Origin: Corallococcus carmarthensis
GTDB lineage: Bacteria > Myxococcota > Myxococcia > Myxococcales > Myxococcaceae
Reading direction: 5' to 3'
NCBI RefSeq assembly: GCF_003611695.1
Contig: NZ_RAWE01000050.1
Coordinates: 1-53,145, forward strand
DNA: 53,145 nt
Below, one piece after another: positions 44,034 through 50,034 of the stretch. Numbering within the stretch: the stretch's first letter is position 1; the number at the start of each line of letters is the position of its first letter. The position numbers and the translations under genes were made by a program. Under the pieces are notes generated by a model that was given only the letters and a program-made list of their open reading frames with translations, had not been told where the DNA came from and made no database searches.

Positions 44034-45761
44034 TCAGGCCGGCTGGCCGCGATCACGTGCCAGCGCCAGGAAGGCGTCGATGAGGGCGCCCAGCTTCGCC
44101 TCCGCGCGCTGGCGGGCCTGGGGGAGCGGCTCGCCGGGGGCGGGCGTCTCCTTGTGCTCGAAGTAGTATTTGATCTTCGGCTCGGTGCCGGAGGGGCGCA
44201 GGGTGACGCGGCCGCCGCCCTCCAGCGCGAAGGCGACGACGTTGGACGGAGGCAGGCCGCCCTCGCCCTGCTGGTAGTCACGCACGGCGCTCACGCGGGT
44301 GCCACCGATGTCCTGGGGCGGCGAGGCGCGGAAGGCCTGCATGATGGCGCGGATGGTCTGCGCACCGGCGGCGCCGGGCAGCGTCACGTTGCGCTGGGCG
44401 CCCACGTGCAGGCCGAAGCGGCGCTGGATCTCCTCCAGGTAGCCCAGCACGGTGACGCCGCGCGCCTCGCACCACGCGGCCAGGTCCGCCATCACCAGCG
44501 CCGCGCCCACGCCGTCCTTGTCGCGGGTGGCGGTGCCCACGGTGTAGCCGAGCGCCTCCTCGTAGCCGAAGACGAACTGCGTGCCGTCCTTCGCCGTGCG
44601 CTCCAGCGCGCGGTTGGCGATCCACTTGAAGCCGGTGAGCACCTCGTCGTACGCGGCGTCCAGCCCGCGCGCGATTTCGCCCAGTTGCGTGGAGGACACG
44701 ATGGTGGTGACGACGTGCGGGCGCGCGCGCTTCGTCCCCTGAGTGAGGACGTAGTGGCCCAGCAGCACGCCCACCTCGTTGCCGGTGAGCAGGCGCAGCT
44801 TCCCGGACGCATCCCGCGCCATCACCGCGAGCCGGTCCGCGTCCGGATCATTGGCGAGCACCAGGTCCGCCTTCACGCGCTCCGCGGTGGCGACGGACAG
44901 GTCCATCGCGCCCGGCTCCTCCGGGTTGGGGAAGCGCACGGTGGGGAAGCGGCCGTCGGGCTGCTGCTGCTCGGCCACGGGCGTCACGCGCGGGAAGCCC
45001 GCCTCCTTGAGCGCGAGCGCCGCCCACGCGCCGCCCACGCCGTGCATGGCGGTGTAGACGATGGACAGCGTGTCGCTGCCCTTGCGGTACAGGCGCAGGT
45101 CCAGGATGGCGCGCAGGTACGCGTTGCCCACGTCCTCCGGCAGGTCGCGCCACAGCCCCTTGGCGCGCCCTTCCGCGGGCGTGAGCAGGGGGACGGCGTT
45201 GGCCGCCTCCACCTTCGCGATGGCGTCCGCGATGCCCACGTCCTGCGGCGGGACGATTTGAGCGCCGTTGCCCCAGTAGACCTTGTAGCCGTTGTACTCG
45301 GGCGGGTTGTGGCTGGCGGTCACCATCACCGCGGCGGCGGCGTTGAGGTGCAGCACGGCGAACGCGGTGACGGGCGTGGGCACCGGCTCTGGGAAGACGT
45401 GCGCGGGGATGCCCTCCGCGGCGAACACGGCGGCGGTGTCCTCCGACAGCTCCTTGCTGAGGCGGCGCGCGTCGCGGCCCACCACCACGCCGCGCGTGGT
45501 GACGTCCGGCACGGTGGCCTTGAGGTAGCGCGCCAGGCCCGCGGTGGTGCGGCGCACGACGGCGCGGTTCATCCGGTTGGGGCCGGCACCCAGCACGCCG
45601 CGCAGGCCCGCCGTGCCGAACTCCAGGTCCTGCGCGAAGCGGTCCGCCAGGTCCGCCCAGTCCGACTTCGCGAGCACATTGGCCAGCTCCGCCTGGGTCT
45701 CCGGATCCGGATCCGCCTTGCGCCAGGCCTCCGCCCGCTCCCTGAGTCCGGTCGTGTCCAT
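44034..45761 (-). CDS. PGM2-type phosphosugar mutase (phosphopentomutase candidate)
   Basis: 575-residue alpha-D-phosphohexomutase-family enzyme. Catalytic phosphoserine loop TASHNPPEYNGYK (S150), metal loop NDPDADRLAV (~300-310) and the phosphate-binding end RPSGTEPKIKYY are all intact. The opening FGTAGLRGVLGAGPNRMN matches the PGM2 branch, whose members include phosphopentomutases, rather than classic AlgC/PGM. Location beside deoC and near a nucleoside phosphorylase supports interconversion of (deoxy)ribose-1- and -5-phosphate (inference). The ATG at 45761 is chosen over 45845, which lies in the intergenic region. The stop overlaps a tandem GACTCAG repeat. Confidence 0.88.
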   Translation of the reverse strand: MDTTGLRERAEAWRKADPDPETQAELANVLAKSDWADLADRFAQDLEFGTAGLRGVLGAGPNRMNRAVVRRTTAGLARYLKATVPDVTTRGVVVGRDARRLSKELSEDTAAVFAAEGIPAHVFPEPVPTPVTAFAVLHLNAAAAVMVTASHNPPEYNGYKVYWGNGAQIVPPQDVGIADAIAKVEAANAVPLLTPAEGRAKGLWRDLPEDVGNAYLRAILDLRLYRKGSDTLSIVYTAMHGVGGAWAALALKEAGFPRVTPVAEQQQPDGRFPTVRFPNPEEPGAMDLSVATAERVKADLVLANDPDADRLAVMARDASGKLRLLTGNEVGVLLGHYVLTQGTKRARPHVVTTIVSSTQLGEIARGLDAAYDEVLTGFKWIANRALERTAKDGTQFVFGYEEALGYTVGTATRDKDGVGAALVMADLAAWCEARGVTVLGYLEEIQRRFGLHVGAQRNVTLPGAAGAQTIRAIMQAFRASPPQDIGGTRVSAVRDYQQGEGGLPPSNVVAFALEGGGRVTLRPSGTEPKIKYYFEHKETPAPGEPLPQARQRAEAKLGALIDAFLALARDRGQPA

Positions 45762-45792
45762 CGCGCGTTGCCTCGTGGTTGAAGAAGGGCGT

Positions 45793-46188
45793 TCAGCCCT
45801 TGTAGTCGGTGAGGTGCTTGCGGCGCACCGGCCCCTTGGGGCCATCCTTGTTGTTCTGACACGCGACGCAGAACTCCGCGTAGGGCATGGCCTTCAGCCG
45901 GCCCATGGGAATCTCGTCGCCGCACTCCTCGCAGTCGCCGAAGGAGTCCGGATCCTCGCGCAGCTTGCCCAGCGCCTTCACCACGCGCGCCAGCGTGCCG
46001 TCGGTGTTGCGGTTCCGGCTGGACGCGATGGCCTGCATCATCTCGTTGAGGGGCTGCTCGTCCTCGTCGCCGCCCACGCGCGCCTCGTCGGTGCGGTTGG
46101 GTTCGATGCGCAGGGGCGTCTTCCCGGTCAGCTCCGCGTGGAGCGCGAGCAACTGCTGGAGGAAGTCCTCTCGCTGCTTCGGGGTCAC
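45793..46188 (-). CDS. DksA/TraR-type zinc finger protein
   Basis: 131 residues. The C-terminal zinc finger is complete: C-x2-C in DCEECGDEIPMGRL and C-x2-C in EFCVACQ. An N-terminal coiled coil (~1-80) includes REDFLQQLLALHAELTG and NEMMQAIASSRN. Such proteins bind the RNA polymerase secondary channel; short family members vary in function. The coiled-coil tip lacks an obvious DxxDxA motif, so a DksA-type role in the stringent response is unsure. It lies between the mutase (31 nt) and deoC (18 nt) and could be in one transcript with them. Confidence 0.85.
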   Translation of the reverse strand: MTPKQREDFLQQLLALHAELTGKTPLRIEPNRTDEARVGGDEDEQPLNEMMQAIASSRNRNTDGTLARVVKALGKLREDPDSFGDCEECGDEIPMGRLKAMPYAEFCVACQNNKDGPKGPVRRKHLTDYKG

Positions 46189-46206
46189 GGTGCGGGCTCC
46201 GGAAGG

Positions 46207-47067
46207 TCAGTACTGCGCGGTGGAGATCTGCCCGGTGACGATGGCCACGGACGCGGAAGCGCCCAGGCGGTTGGCGCCCGCGCGCAAGAGCTTCACGGCG
46301 TCCTCCGCGGAACGCACGCCACCGGAGGCCTTCACGCCCACCTCGTCCCCCACCACCGCGCGCATCAGCTCGATGTCCTTCACCGTGGCGCCGCCGGGCC
46401 CGAAGCCGGTGGACGTCTTCACGAACGCGGCGCCCGCGGCCTTGGACAGCGCGCACGCGACGACCTTCTCCTCGTCCGTGAGGTGGCCCGTCTCCAGGAT
46501 GACCTTCACGGGCAGCGGGTGGCTGGCCTCCACCACCGCGGCGATGTCCTGGTGCACGCGCTGGTAGTCGTGCGCCTTGAGCGCGCCCAGGTTGAGCACC
46601 ATGTCGATTTCACGTGCCCCGGCGCGGATGGCCTCGCGCGCCTCGAAGGCCTTCGCGGACGACAGCGCGGCGCCCAGCGGGAAGCCCACCACGGCGATGG
46701 GCACGACGGTGGAGCCCGCCAACACGCGCGCGGCGGTGGCCACGTGGCAGCTGTTCACGCACACGGTGGCGAAGCCGTACTGGCGGGCCTCCTCGGCCAC
46801 GCGCACCACGTCCTCGGCGCGCGCCTCGGGCTTGAGCAGCGTGTGGTCGATGTACGGCGCCAGGTCCGAGGCCTTGAGGAGGGTGGCCGGGTCCACGCGC
46901 GCGGTGGCGGTCTTCACGCCGGGCGGGCGCGGGGGCTCCGGGTTCAGGACGGCGGCGGGCGCGGGCGGCACCGCTTCCTGCTGGACCTTCCAGGCGTGCA
47001 GACGGTGACGGGCCTGGTCGACCAGCTCTTCCAGGACGGTGAAGAAGGCTTCGGCGTCGGACGGCAT
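46207..47067 (-). CDS. deoC: deoxyribose-phosphate aldolase
   Basis: 286-residue class I aldolase, cleaving 2-deoxyribose-5-phosphate to acetaldehyde and glyceraldehyde-3-phosphate. The Schiff-base lysine is in FVKTSTGF, the proton-relay lysine in VGVKASGGVR, and YIDHTLLKPEA begins the barrel. The barrel starts only at ~residue 70; the N-terminal extension has a helix (FFTVLEELVDQARHRLHAW) and a Pro/Ala-rich linker, making it ~60 residues longer than most DeoC. It is the first gene of a unit with the DksA-like and mutase genes, giving the final step of deoxynucleoside breakdown. Confidence 0.94.
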   Translation of the reverse strand: MPSDAEAFFTVLEELVDQARHRLHAWKVQQEAVPPAPAAVLNPEPPRPPGVKTATARVDPATLLKASDLAPYIDHTLLKPEARAEDVVRVAEEARQYGFATVCVNSCHVATAARVLAGSTVVPIAVVGFPLGAALSSAKAFEAREAIRAGAREIDMVLNLGALKAHDYQRVHQDIAAVVEASHPLPVKVILETGHLTDEEKVVACALSKAAGAAFVKTSTGFGPGGATVKDIELMRAVVGDEVGVKASGGVRSAEDAVKLLRAGANRLGASASVAIVTGQISTAQY

Positions 47068-47180: not shown

Positions 47181-48410
47181 GTGAAGGTCTTCGCGCGGCT
47201 GCTCGCACTCCTTGTCCTCCTCCTCGCGGCGCTGCCGGGCCACGCGGCGGCTCCGGCCTCCTCGGGCCTCCCCTCCCCCGCCCCGGGCCGGCTGACGGTC
47301 TACTTCCTCGACGTGGGCCAGGGGGACGCGGCGCTCATCGTGTCGCCCACGGGCAAGACGGTGCTCATCGACGGCGGGCCCCCGGAGGCCGGCACGCGGC
47401 TGGCGGCGCGGCTGCGCGAGCTGGTGAAGGGACCATTGGACCTGGTCATCCTCACCCACCCGCACCTGGACCACCTGGGCGGGCTGCGCGCGGCGGTGAA
47501 GGCGGTGGGCGCCAGGCGGTTCATGGACCCCGGCTTCGACCACCCGAGCGAGGCGTACCGCGACCTGCTGGACTTCGTGGGCAACGAGGTGGGCCAGGTG
47601 ATGAGCCCGGAGCCCAACCCTTCCTCGCCCCAGACGCTGCTCACCGTGGGCCTGGGCGAAGGCGTGGCGCTCACCGTGCTCTGGCCGCGCGTGCCCCAGG
47701 AGCCGTTCCTCGCGAACACGCGCTCGGACGCGAACGCGAACTCCATCGTCACCAAGCTCACCTATGGGAAGACGGCGTTCCTCTTCACGGGGGACTCGGA
47801 GCCGCCCACGGAAGAGGTGCTGCTGCAGAAGCCGGTGGACCTCGCCGCCACGGTGCTGAAGGTGGCGCACCACGGCGGCAAGCACTCCTCCACCGCGGCC
47901 TTCCTGGAGCGCGTGAAGCCGCAGGCGGCGGTCATCTCCTGCGGCGTGGGCAACGACTACGGCCACCCGAGCCCGGAGGTCCTGGGCCGCCTGCGCGACG
48001 TGCGCGCGCGGACCTTCCGCACCGACCAGGACGGCGAGGTGATGGCGGTGAGCGACGGCGCGACCGTGACGTTGCGCTCGGCGAGGGGCGGCGCAGGGGC
48101 CTCCAGCGTGTCCGGCACGCAGCAGTCAGGAGGCCCGGTGGCGCTGGGCCCCATCGAACCCACGCCGCACGGCCGCGCCGGCCGCTCCGTGGAGAAGGAA
48201 CCGGAGCCGGGCGCGTCCCGGACCCGGACGCCGGTGGAGCCCACGGCCCCCGCGGCCACGGGCGAGCGCTTCGTGTCGCTGAAGGGCAGCAAGGTGTTCC
48301 ACCGCGAGAGCTGCTCGACCTTGAAGCGCTCGAAGAACGAGCGCACCGTCTATCCAAGCCGCGCCGACGCCCTGCGTGAGCGCCGCCCCGCCGAGGATTG
48401 CCATCCATGA
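47181..48410 (+). CDS. secreted ComEC-type MBL-fold hydrolase
   Basis: 409 residues. The signal peptide (MKVFARLLALLVLLLAALPG) is followed by a metallo-beta-lactamase domain like the nuclease-type domain of ComEC/Rec2 (~38-300): DVGQGDAALI, the metal motif THPHLDHLGG (H93, H95, D97, H98), FTGDSE and VAHHGGKHSST, all ligands present. After a charged linker a short C-terminal domain (KVFHRESC ... EDCHP) resembles Ada/nuclease-associated metal-binding modules, although only one cysteine remains at the end. It probably acts on phosphodiesters outside the cytoplasm. Its stop overlaps the start of a paralogue (ATGA). Confidence 0.9.
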   Translation: MKVFARLLALLVLLLAALPGHAAAPASSGLPSPAPGRLTVYFLDVGQGDAALIVSPTGKTVLIDGGPPEAGTRLAARLRELVKGPLDLVILTHPHLDHLGGLRAAVKAVGARRFMDPGFDHPSEAYRDLLDFVGNEVGQVMSPEPNPSSPQTLLTVGLGEGVALTVLWPRVPQEPFLANTRSDANANSIVTKLTYGKTAFLFTGDSEPPTEEVLLQKPVDLAATVLKVAHHGGKHSSTAAFLERVKPQAAVISCGVGNDYGHPSPEVLGRLRDVRARTFRTDQDGEVMAVSDGATVTLRSARGGAGASSVSGTQQSGGPVALGPIEPTPHGRAGRSVEKEPEPGASRTRTPVEPTAPAATGERFVSLKGSKVFHRESCSTLKRSKNERTVYPSRADALRERRPAEDCHP

Positions 48411-49777
48411 AGGCCCGCATCGCGCTGGGAGTGGGGCTGATGCTCGCCTCCCTGGCCTGTCAGCAGCAGTCGTCCGCGCCGCCCGCGCAGGCGGCCCCGG
48501 AGAAGTCGCGCTACTTCGGCGGCGCGCCGGACGGGAAGCTCCACGTGTACTTCTTCGACGTGGGCGCGGGGGATGCCGCGCTCATCGTCACGCCGCGCGG
48601 CAACACGGTGCTGGTGGATTCAGGGCCCGCGTCCGCCGAGTCCCACCTGGTGAACCGGCTGCCGGAGCTGCTGCGCCGCGAGCTGGACCTGGTGGTCCTC
48701 ACCCAGCCGGATCCGAAGCACCACGGCGCGTTGGAGGCGGTGCTCAAGCGCGTGGGCGCGCGGCGGTTGATGGAGCCGCAGCTGCCCGACACGTCGAAGA
48801 CCTACGACGCGCTGCTGACGGCGGTGGGCTCGCGGGGGGTGCAGATCATCTCCCCCGCGCCGTCCTCGTCCGCGCCCAAGGAGCTGGTGCGGTTGACGCT
48901 GGAGGACCGGGTGAACCTCACGGTGCTCTGGCCCCGCGCGCCCGCGGAGCCGCTCCTGAAGGGGGCCGCGGACGCGGAGGGGCGCAACGCGGCGAACTCC
49001 ATCGTGCTGCGCCTGACGTACGACGACACGTCGGTCATCTTCGCGGGCGGCGCGCGCGGTGAGACGGAGGCCCAGCTGCTGGAGCGTGGGCTGCTGTCCC
49101 CGGCCACGCTGCTGAAGGTCGCCTCGCCCGGCGTGGAGGGGGCGAACTCGCTGGCCTACCTGGAGGAGGTGCGGCCGCAGGCGGCGGTGTTCAGCGGGGA
49201 TGACAGCCTGGGGAAGAACCCGAAGGTGAAGGAGCTCCTCGCGCGGCTGCGCGGCGTGGATGCGCGGGCGTTCCGCACGGACGTGAACGGCGAGTTGCAC
49301 GCGGTGAGCGACGGCAAGCAGTTCACGCTCTCGCTCCAGCGTCCGACACCGGGGGAGGCGGGCGGCACGCGGCGCATCTTCCCGGGGTTGGATCCGCGCC
49401 CGGCGCTGGTGCGGACGGCGAAGCCCGCGCCCGTGGTGAAGCCGGCGCCCACCGAGCCGCCCCCGGCCATCAAGACAGAGCCCGCGCGAGTCGTCGCGGC
49501 ACCGCGAGACACGACGTCCCGCGCCAGCAATGTGACGGACGTGGATGACCTGCCCACCGCGAGCAAGGGCACGCGGACGGAGGAGCCGGAGAAGGCGGTG
49601 CGCTCTTCCGCCAGTTCGTCCATGGGTGGCTACCGGGCGAGCAAGAACAAGCAGATCTTCCACAAGGCCACCTGCCGGAGCGTGAAGCTCATCAATCCGG
49701 AGAACCTGCTCACGTGGAGCACGCGTGACGCGGCGGTGAAGTCGGGCCGCAAGCCCGCGGGAGACTGCAACCCGTGA
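48407..49777 (+). CDS. ComEC-type MBL-fold lipoprotein lacking metal ligands
   Basis: 456 residues; tandem paralogue of the preceding gene with the same domain order (MBL fold ~45-310, linker, C-terminal KIFHKATC ... GDCNP). It is a lipoprotein (LASLAC, C18). Every metal motif is altered: THPHLDH has become TQPDPKH, FTGDSE has become FAGGAR, and AHHGGKHSS has become ASPGVEGAN. It therefore cannot bind the usual two metals and is a pseudoenzyme, perhaps a membrane-tethered partner or regulator of the active copy. The ATG at 48407 overlaps the previous stop; the stop overlaps the DUF3006 start (GTGA). The frame is fully open, so it is not a decaying pseudogene. Confidence 0.9.
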   Translation: MKARIALGVGLMLASLACQQQSSAPPAQAAPEKSRYFGGAPDGKLHVYFFDVGAGDAALIVTPRGNTVLVDSGPASAESHLVNRLPELLRRELDLVVLTQPDPKHHGALEAVLKRVGARRLMEPQLPDTSKTYDALLTAVGSRGVQIISPAPSSSAPKELVRLTLEDRVNLTVLWPRAPAEPLLKGAADAEGRNAANSIVLRLTYDDTSVIFAGGARGETEAQLLERGLLSPATLLKVASPGVEGANSLAYLEEVRPQAAVFSGDDSLGKNPKVKELLARLRGVDARAFRTDVNGELHAVSDGKQFTLSLQRPTPGEAGGTRRIFPGLDPRPALVRTAKPAPVVKPAPTEPPPAIKTEPARVVAAPRDTTSRASNVTDVDDLPTASKGTRTEEPEKAVRSSASSSMGGYRASKNKQIFHKATCRSVKLINPENLLTWSTRDAAVKSGRKPAGDCNP

Positions 49778-50034
49778 CGAAGAAGACGAAGCCCCGGTCC
49801 AGGGCCACGGTGGACCGCATCGAAGACGACGTCGCCGTGCTGGTGGTGGACGGTCAACAGATGACCCGCGCGCTGGACACCCTGCCGCCCGGCGTGCGCG
49901 AAGGCGACGTCTTGGACCTGGAGACGGGGACGGTGGACGCCGAAGCCACCGAGTCCCTGCGCACCGACGTCCGCGCCGCGAGGGAACGGGCGATGGGTGG
50001 CAAGAAGCCGCCCGCGGGAGACTTCGACCTCTGA
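49774..50034 (+). CDS. DUF3006 domain protein
   Basis: 86 residues, GTG start overlapping the previous stop. The pattern RATVDRIEDDVAVLVVDG followed by LPPGVREGDVLDL is the DUF3006 signature, a small beta-rich domain often encoded beside stand-alone ComEC-type MBL proteins. The C-terminal half is charged helix (TDVRAARERAMGG). No signal peptide is visible, unlike its two partners. The function of DUF3006 is unknown. Confidence 0.88.
   Translation: MTKKTKPRSRATVDRIEDDVAVLVVDGQQMTRALDTLPPGVREGDVLDLETGTVDAEATESLRTDVRAARERAMGGKKPPAGDFDL

Follow-up and report, generated by a model that had tools for sequence, protein, structure and literature searches.

Metallo-beta-lactamase (MBL) nucleases that work beside a degenerate relative have been described in eukaryotes: CPSF73/CPSF100 and INTS11/INTS9 each combine an MBL nuclease with a related pseudo-MBL, and INTS9 has lost ligands (PMC7980224). 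In bacteria, the metal residues of the MBL domain are substituted in Streptococcus pneumoniae ComEC, for which zinc binding was judged unlikely (PMC5031224) and a role in guiding DNA was suggested if the domain is inactive (PMC8579336). Stand-alone ComEC-like MBL nucleases are also known from gene pairs, namely the trypsin-MBL proenzyme modules of Hachiman, Avs1, Lamassu and DRT (PMC12799240). Here, three genes, termed A, B and C, are analysed in a stretch of 53,145 nucleotides from Corallococcus carmarthensis (contig NZ_RAWE01000050.1), hereafter the window. The source genome comprises 10.8 Mb in 530 contigs and belongs to the Myxococcaceae, a family of predatory soil bacteria. Domain scans and reading frames confirmed the plan that an earlier, sequence-only reading had assigned to this locus: a ComEC-type MBL gene (A), a degraded paralogue of lipoprotein type (B) and a DUF3006 gene (C). 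As a whole, the locus is best explained by an exported A nuclease accompanied by a membrane-tethered pseudoenzyme B with a non-catalytic role, to which we give a probability of about 0.5.

Gene layout and recurrence in the Myxococcaceae

A, B and C are consecutive on the plus strand of the window, and each neighbouring pair shares 4 nucleotides (nt). Residue numbers are those of the M. glycerini ComEC domain (PMC12455585), mapped via HPDADH, with D541, D700 and S728 falling as published. The features are as follows.

47181..48410, plus strand: gene A, predicted secreted stand-alone ComEC-type MBL hydrolase, GTG at 47181 to TGA at 48410, 409 amino acids (aa), mapped catalytic residues all intact
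47457..47474, plus strand: motif II of A, HPHLDH, residues 93-98, equivalent to H598-H603 of M. glycerini ComEC
47793..47795, plus strand: Asp205 of A, equivalent to D700
47868..47873, plus strand: His230-His231 of A, equivalent to H725-H726
47964..47966, plus strand: His262 of A, in the GHP motif, equivalent to H757
48267..48407, plus strand: C-terminal Ada_Zn_binding-like domain of A, with modelled strands and helices at residues 364-400; a relative (L210) passes PF02805
48393..48396, plus strand: GAGG inside A, putative ribosome binding site of B, read from the sequence
48407..48410, plus strand: ATGA, where the stop of A overlaps the start of B; identical overlap in 60/60 family pairs
48407..49777, plus strand: gene B, lipoprotein-type paralogue of A, pseudo-MBL, ATG at 48407 to TGA at 49777, 456 aa
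48458..48460, plus strand: Cys18 of B, predicted lipidated Cys, after a hydrophobic stretch (LASLAC)
48704..48721, plus strand: degraded motif II of B, QPDPKH, residues 100-105
49049..49051, plus strand: Gly215 of B, replacing the Asp equivalent to D700
49124..49129, plus strand: Ser240-Pro241 of B, replacing HH (H725-H726)
49628..49774, plus strand: C-terminal Ada-like domain of B, common to A (alignment with A, modelled strands)
49774..49777, plus strand: GTGA, where the stop of B overlaps the start of C; start at -4 in 27/59 family loci
49774..50034, plus strand: gene C, DUF3006 protein (PF11213), 86 aa, GTG start, by eye no signal peptide, probably cytoplasmic

Both overlaps (ATGA and GTGA) were read from the window as the sequence-only reading had given them, and so were the motifs, which are THPHLDH, FTGDSE and AHHGGKH in A and TQPDPKH, FAGGAR and ASPGVEGAN in B. 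A matches Lactamase_B (4e-19) and the ComEC MBL domain of PDB 9ic4 (1.4e-32), while the matches of B to the same are weaker (Lactamase_B 17.3 bits, below the cut-off of 22.7; 9ic4 2e-15). The two proteins are 47% identical over their aligned part. Both are closed by a small terminal domain related to the Ada zinc-binding domain; Ada_Zn_binding gave no Pfam hit in A or B themselves, and the relatives L114, L139 and L210 pass its cut-off. The ComEC/Rec2 model TIGR00361 (cut-off 190 bits) was not reached by A (118 bits) or B (47 bits), both matching over the MBL part only, and the Pfam scan found neither a competence (channel) domain nor a beta-CASP domain in either protein. C is a DUF3006 protein by PF11213 (51.5 bits against a Pfam gathering cut-off of 32.3), and a PDB sequence search with C found nothing.

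In structural models, 9ic4 is the top PDB match of A (template-modelling score, TMt, 0.88) and of B (TMt 0.82), and ten-residue blocks of the MBL domain of B have a predicted local distance difference test score (pLDDT) of 91-98. The ComEC nuclease fold is therefore predicted for B with high model confidence, the alignments used for modelling having contained A-type relatives that could draw B toward the same fold. Net charge was uninformative as a hint of DNA binding: A averages -4.9 and B -6.3, yet the DNA-cutting 9ic4 domain itself stands at -7 by a similar count. An open frame of ComEC type lies elsewhere in the same genome (G000:C55:18658-19419; L003, L034); it encodes 832 aa and its MBL motifs are intact, so A is unlikely to replace ComEC.

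The N-terminus of A resembles a signal peptide and lacks a lipobox Cys in the window copy; a lipobox-like Cys occurs in 3/69 family A copies. The lipoprotein-type N-terminus claimed for B is supported at the sequence level, since a hydrophobic stretch followed by a lipobox-like Cys (loosened PROSITE PS51257 pattern) is present in 59/62 B copies, the exceptions including one cut by a contig end (L072) and one with an unclear start (L067). Lipoprotein sorting in M. xanthus, according to PMC3222651, directs proteins with Lys at +2 to the inner membrane and those with Ala at +7 to the matrix. A uniform localisation of B by these rules was rejected, as both positions are mixed: +2 is Q in 23, K in 21, E in 10, R in 4, L in 1 and T in 1, and +7 is Ala in 13/60 (an earlier Cys being taken in L056).

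To survey the family, 96 genomes were searched with B and the regions were then read. A was found in 69/96 and B in 62/96, both on one contig in 60; in G056 they lie on two contigs broken at the pair, and a B fragment at a contig end in G083 was left out of the counts. The remaining 26/96 genomes gave weaker matches only (best E about 1e-5 to 1e-15) or none. The A stop and the B start overlap by exactly 4 nt in all 60 same-contig pairs, hence this overlap is not a matter of chance. Of the 60 B copies with at least 300 nt of downstream sequence, 59 are followed by DUF3006; C starts at -4 in 27/59 of these loci and about 9-28 nt past B in the others, one perhaps at -1. Thus, of the joint production proposed for the three proteins, the layout for co-translation of A and B is supported, whereas overlap of B with C is not the rule. 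B was found in genera g1 (Corallococcus), g3 (2/6), g5, g6, g7, g8, g9, g10, g13, g19 and g20, including all 16 Corallococcus genomes, where its frame is unbroken (a contig end truncates one copy). The A-B pair is present in every B-bearing genus except g13. Recurring in this order in 10 genera, the pair is no oddity of one strain.

Loss of catalytic residues and origin of B

Residues were counted over all 69 A and 62 B copies. Nine mapped site positions are kept in 69/69 A copies, with His for D600, and the residues of the two-metal site are intact in every one. By contrast, the nine are kept together by 0/62 B copies. None of the 62 retains H725 (the first His of HHG) or H757 (in GHP), and retention elsewhere is graded: D602 in 43/62, D700 in 46/62, H598 in 50/62, and H603 and N682 in 62/62. 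The window B retains three site residues, the equivalents of D600, H603 and N682. It is altered at three of the four residues H598, D602, H603 and D700, whose Ala mutants were virtually inactive in the ComEC nuclease domain, D600A being excepted; H725 is termed a putative DNA-binding residue in the same source (PMC12455585). Baker et al. treat B. subtilis His693, which we infer to correspond to H725, as a zinc-binding position.

All 16 Corallococcus B copies carry Lys/Arg at D602, Gly/Ala/Ser at D700 and Pro at H726. Judged from these residues, Corallococcus B is very probably catalytically dead, and the B copies of other genera are probably crippled. The broken metal site is characteristic of Corallococcus, a few other lineages having lost part of it, and at least three changes on the tree are required to account for loss of the H598/D602/H603/D700 set. 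The loss of metal ligands that the sequence-only reading ascribed to B is hence true for the window and for Corallococcus, while HxHxDH and the bridging Asp are intact in most genera.

The tree comprised 77 MBL domains in rows hand-chosen to span genera. B forms one clade (28/28 rows, support 100/100) arising near the root of the family A proteins. The A rows do not fall on one side of a branch, because those of g10 and g17 branch first, on long branches. B is derived from one old tandem duplication of A, the exact point of which is uncertain given that the long-branched g10 and g17 A diverge earlier, although g10 has B.

Selection was estimated as the median pairwise ratio of nonsynonymous to synonymous substitution rates (dN/dS; Nei-Gojobori, pairs with dS 0.02-1.2) in 15 of the 16 Corallococcus (L048 omitted) and 24 genomes of the Myxococcus group g19, with the linker as a control since GC bias may shift the values. 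In Corallococcus, the MBL domain gave 0.28 for A and 0.32 for B (105 pairs each) against 0.82 and 0.67 for the linkers; in the Myxococcus group, the values were 0.33 and 0.41 (276 pairs each) against 0.87 and 1.11. The frame of B had been described as intact, and no break was seen in 62 copies, three of which are cut by contig ends (L048, L072, L077); with the MBL values below those of the linkers, B is a pseudoenzyme maintained by selection. A broken site in a constrained gene suggests that the dead twin has a job other than catalysis.

That the Corallococcus B is instead a decaying gene on its way out might be argued from its long stem (0.40 changes per site, compared with 0.077 for Corallococcus A) and from apparent losses of B in genus g3. 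This is nevertheless very improbable: the crown of the B branch is short again, none of the 16 Corallococcus copies shows a frame break (allowing for the one cut by a contig end), the MBL dN/dS of 0.32 lies well under the linker value of 0.67, and both the lipobox-like Cys and the overlap are kept.

Positions of A and B were compared after omission of the incomplete copies L096 and L090 (A) and L048 and L077 (B). At 27 positions, fixation reaches at least 97% in A yet stays below 70% in B; 17 of these lie in or beside catalytic motifs by sequence position. Core positions common to both include WPR (168-170 in A), K227 and TDxxG (281-285). This relaxed catalytic face argues against B holding DNA in an A-like groove. 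After a single duplication, one gene here displays successive natural grades on the way to a pseudoenzyme: two site His lost in all B copies seen, metal residues further lost in some lineages and most of the site in Corallococcus, with fold and constraint kept. Such graded and recurrent decay under constraint is moderately surprising.

Proposed role of B and its alternatives

In the preferred reading, A would be a phosphodiesterase of ComEC type that is either secreted or periplasmic and, by analogy with the activity of ComEC, is most likely a DNA nuclease dependent on Mn. The tandem duplication would have taken place near the base of the Myxococcaceae, after which B would have gained its lipid anchor and lost catalysis stepwise while being translated just behind A. 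With its active-site face free to vary and its fold core held, B would most likely perform a non-catalytic job via other surfaces, as a scaffold or dock bound to the membrane and probably serving A or the products of A; a second nuclease or an A-like DNA-binding groove is less favoured. C would probably be a cytoplasmic member of an older module of A and DUF3006. A more specific form, in which A and B are a co-translated envelope heterodimer and the lipid-anchored pseudo-nuclease anchors and gates an exported ComEC-type DNase, as a bacterial counterpart of CPSF73/CPSF100, is doubtful.

Several observations weigh against the preferred reading. The equivalents of H598, D602, H603 and D700 are all kept in 20/28 B rows of the tree, and since HxHxDH and the Asp persist in most B copies, residual or altered activity is conceivable in those genera. 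B may accordingly still be catalytic in most genera, its metal site or its substrate having changed, and activity would be lost only in Corallococcus and a few other lineages. H603 and N682, invariant in B, also fit this, but the H725 and H757 equivalents are missing throughout, the substrate-side positions are relaxed too and Corallococcus B is constrained despite its broken site, which makes a still-active B unlikely. In addition, the phosphorylcholine esterase Pce ranks second among the fold matches of A and of B, and the C-terminal domain in Corallococcus has a dN/dS of 0.59 in B as against 0.20 in A.

Other adverse points concern the partnership itself. A and DUF3006 occur without B in six genomes (G001, G002, G003, G005, G006 and G051), so A does not require B; four of these (L099-L102: G002, G003, G005 and G006) belong to genus g3, in which two relatives keep B and the loss of B is apparent, and the A frame of G002 seems broken behind the MBL domain. 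Conversely, in G047 (L067, 78% complete) B directly follows deoC, with no A or DUF3006 on the 6.7 kb contig. Branch-rate covariation between A and B, computed for the 45 of the 60 pair genomes that have all seven genes, did not exceed the controls (partial r 0.14, p 0.19), while A or B with the mutase gene near the locus gave 0.42 and 0.48. Of the active/inactive pair that had been proposed, therefore, the side-by-side recurrence of both paralogues stands, and the partnership is unsupported by rate covariation.

The lack of covariation, the persistence of A without B and the relaxed catalytic face of B are also what would be expected if B were an independent lipoprotein with a new binding function (e.g., a receptor for a ligand or nucleic acid) and made no contact with A, the operon reflecting common regulation only. 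Such independence is possible, though hardly probable, given that the -4 overlap is unbroken in 60/60 pairs and that B without A is seen in a single genome, itself 78% complete.

Gene C, flanking genes and comparison with known systems

To look outside the family, 145 genomes of the order were searched with a profile and 195 of the phylum for DUF3006, and the regions were read. In all 14 genomes with DUF3006 that these searches yielded outside the family, a DUF3006 copy adjoins an MBL gene keeping HxHxDH, HH and GHP, with no second MBL between them, some of the contigs ending near the MBL gene; the DUF3006 gene is on the opposite strand in G119 and G120. Among 74 distant loci from named genomes, 60 hold stand-alone proteins, of which at least 17 have a DUF3006 neighbour, from Listeria and clostridia to methanogens. 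This is a lower bound, as the profile was built from the C proteins of the family and is narrow. The occurrence of DUF3006 beside MBL genes that lack a B indicates that A and C form an old module into which B was inserted by duplication. DUF3006 does adjoin the pair in the family, but rather than being the third member of it, as first read, belongs to this older two-gene module.

A second, divergent DUF3006 lies beside radC in L249 (G000:C159, 4684-8139), L250, L256, L257, L258 and L260. These are 6 of the 7 fetched regions having DUF3006 without MBL, and recQ is also adjacent in four. In the seventh (L255, 410-2519, G139:C104), DUF3006 is matched twice within a single 703-aa open frame close to a contig end, and neither MBL nor RadC is matched next to it. 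DUF3006 thus appears, from gene neighbourhoods, to have two DNA-related contexts, MBL and RadC/RecQ, which were counted in favour of the preferred reading. No paper on DUF3006 was found in a literature search covering few subscription papers and no preprints, and the A-B-C locus supplies a testable context for this domain. A separate second MBL paralogue that has lost the GHP His and kept HHG was observed in family f7 (L208, 5695-6951, G137:C2), as what may be a parallel first step of decay; no DUF3006 was found in this 13 kb region.

Upstream of A, the window contains one neighbour outside the pair that serves as context only:

46207..47067, minus strand: deoC-type aldolase, divergent from A

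Within the flank at 44034-47067 (minus strand), deoC diverges from A (or B) in 67/67 family loci with 1.2 kb of room, and the same loci have a dksA/traR-type gene in 65 and a phosphoglucomutase/phosphomannomutase (PGM/PMM)-type mutase in 66. Two further families of the order (L214, L216) likewise have deoC near the MBL gene, and the window's own deoC as query found none in the 74 distant loci within the flank covered. Both a link to DNA-sugar catabolism and plain synteny are possible for the deoC neighbourhood; deoC-dksA-mutase as a link to DNA catabolism was set aside because family synteny explains the neighbours.

An anti-phage MBL module of the Lamassu, Avs1 or trypsin-MBL type was considered on account of PADLOC matches of A to LmuA (69.9 bits), RTasMBL (49.6) and Avs1a (43.7). 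These cover the MBL parts only, B matches RTasMBL alone (E 0.002), and no protease, STAND or SMC protein is among the six neighbours scanned. Furthermore, synteny of the locus is kept throughout the family, which is not expected of a mobile defence island, and A and B have export-type N-termini. With no protease or defence core gene among these six neighbours, the defence reading was dropped as extremely improbable. The trypsin-MBL modules differ from the present locus in that the partner there is a protease fusion acting in antiphage defence.

Among known systems, the ComEC MBL nuclease domain (PDB 9ic4) is the nearest solved structure to A and B, and A has its catalytic residues, with His for D600. 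Unlike ComEC, A and B are separate exported proteins without a competence channel, and the site of B is broken. S. pneumoniae ComEC resembles B in retaining a ComEC-type MBL with substituted metal residues; there, however, the domain is within the channel protein, whereas B is a separate lipoprotein beside an intact paralogue. The pair of a stand-alone ComEC-like MBL and DUF3006 is equivalent to A and C and occurs in other Myxococcota as well, but has no B between its genes in the regions read outside the family. The same literature search found no paper on a stand-alone bacterial active/dead ComEC-like pair and none containing both MXAN and ComEC. The novelty claimed for such a pair accordingly stands, within this search, for a stand-alone bacterial ComEC-like protein, not for dead MBL partners of MBL nucleases in general, which are known in eukaryotes. 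Like CPSF73/CPSF100 and INTS11/INTS9, A-B has a paralogue without its catalytic residues kept beside an active-type one, although the eukaryotic pairs are proven dimers of RNA processing with beta-CASP domains and A-B is known from sequence and single-chain models. If B acts on A, the locus would extend the active/dead MBL nuclease pairing found in eukaryotic RNA processing to the bacterial envelope.

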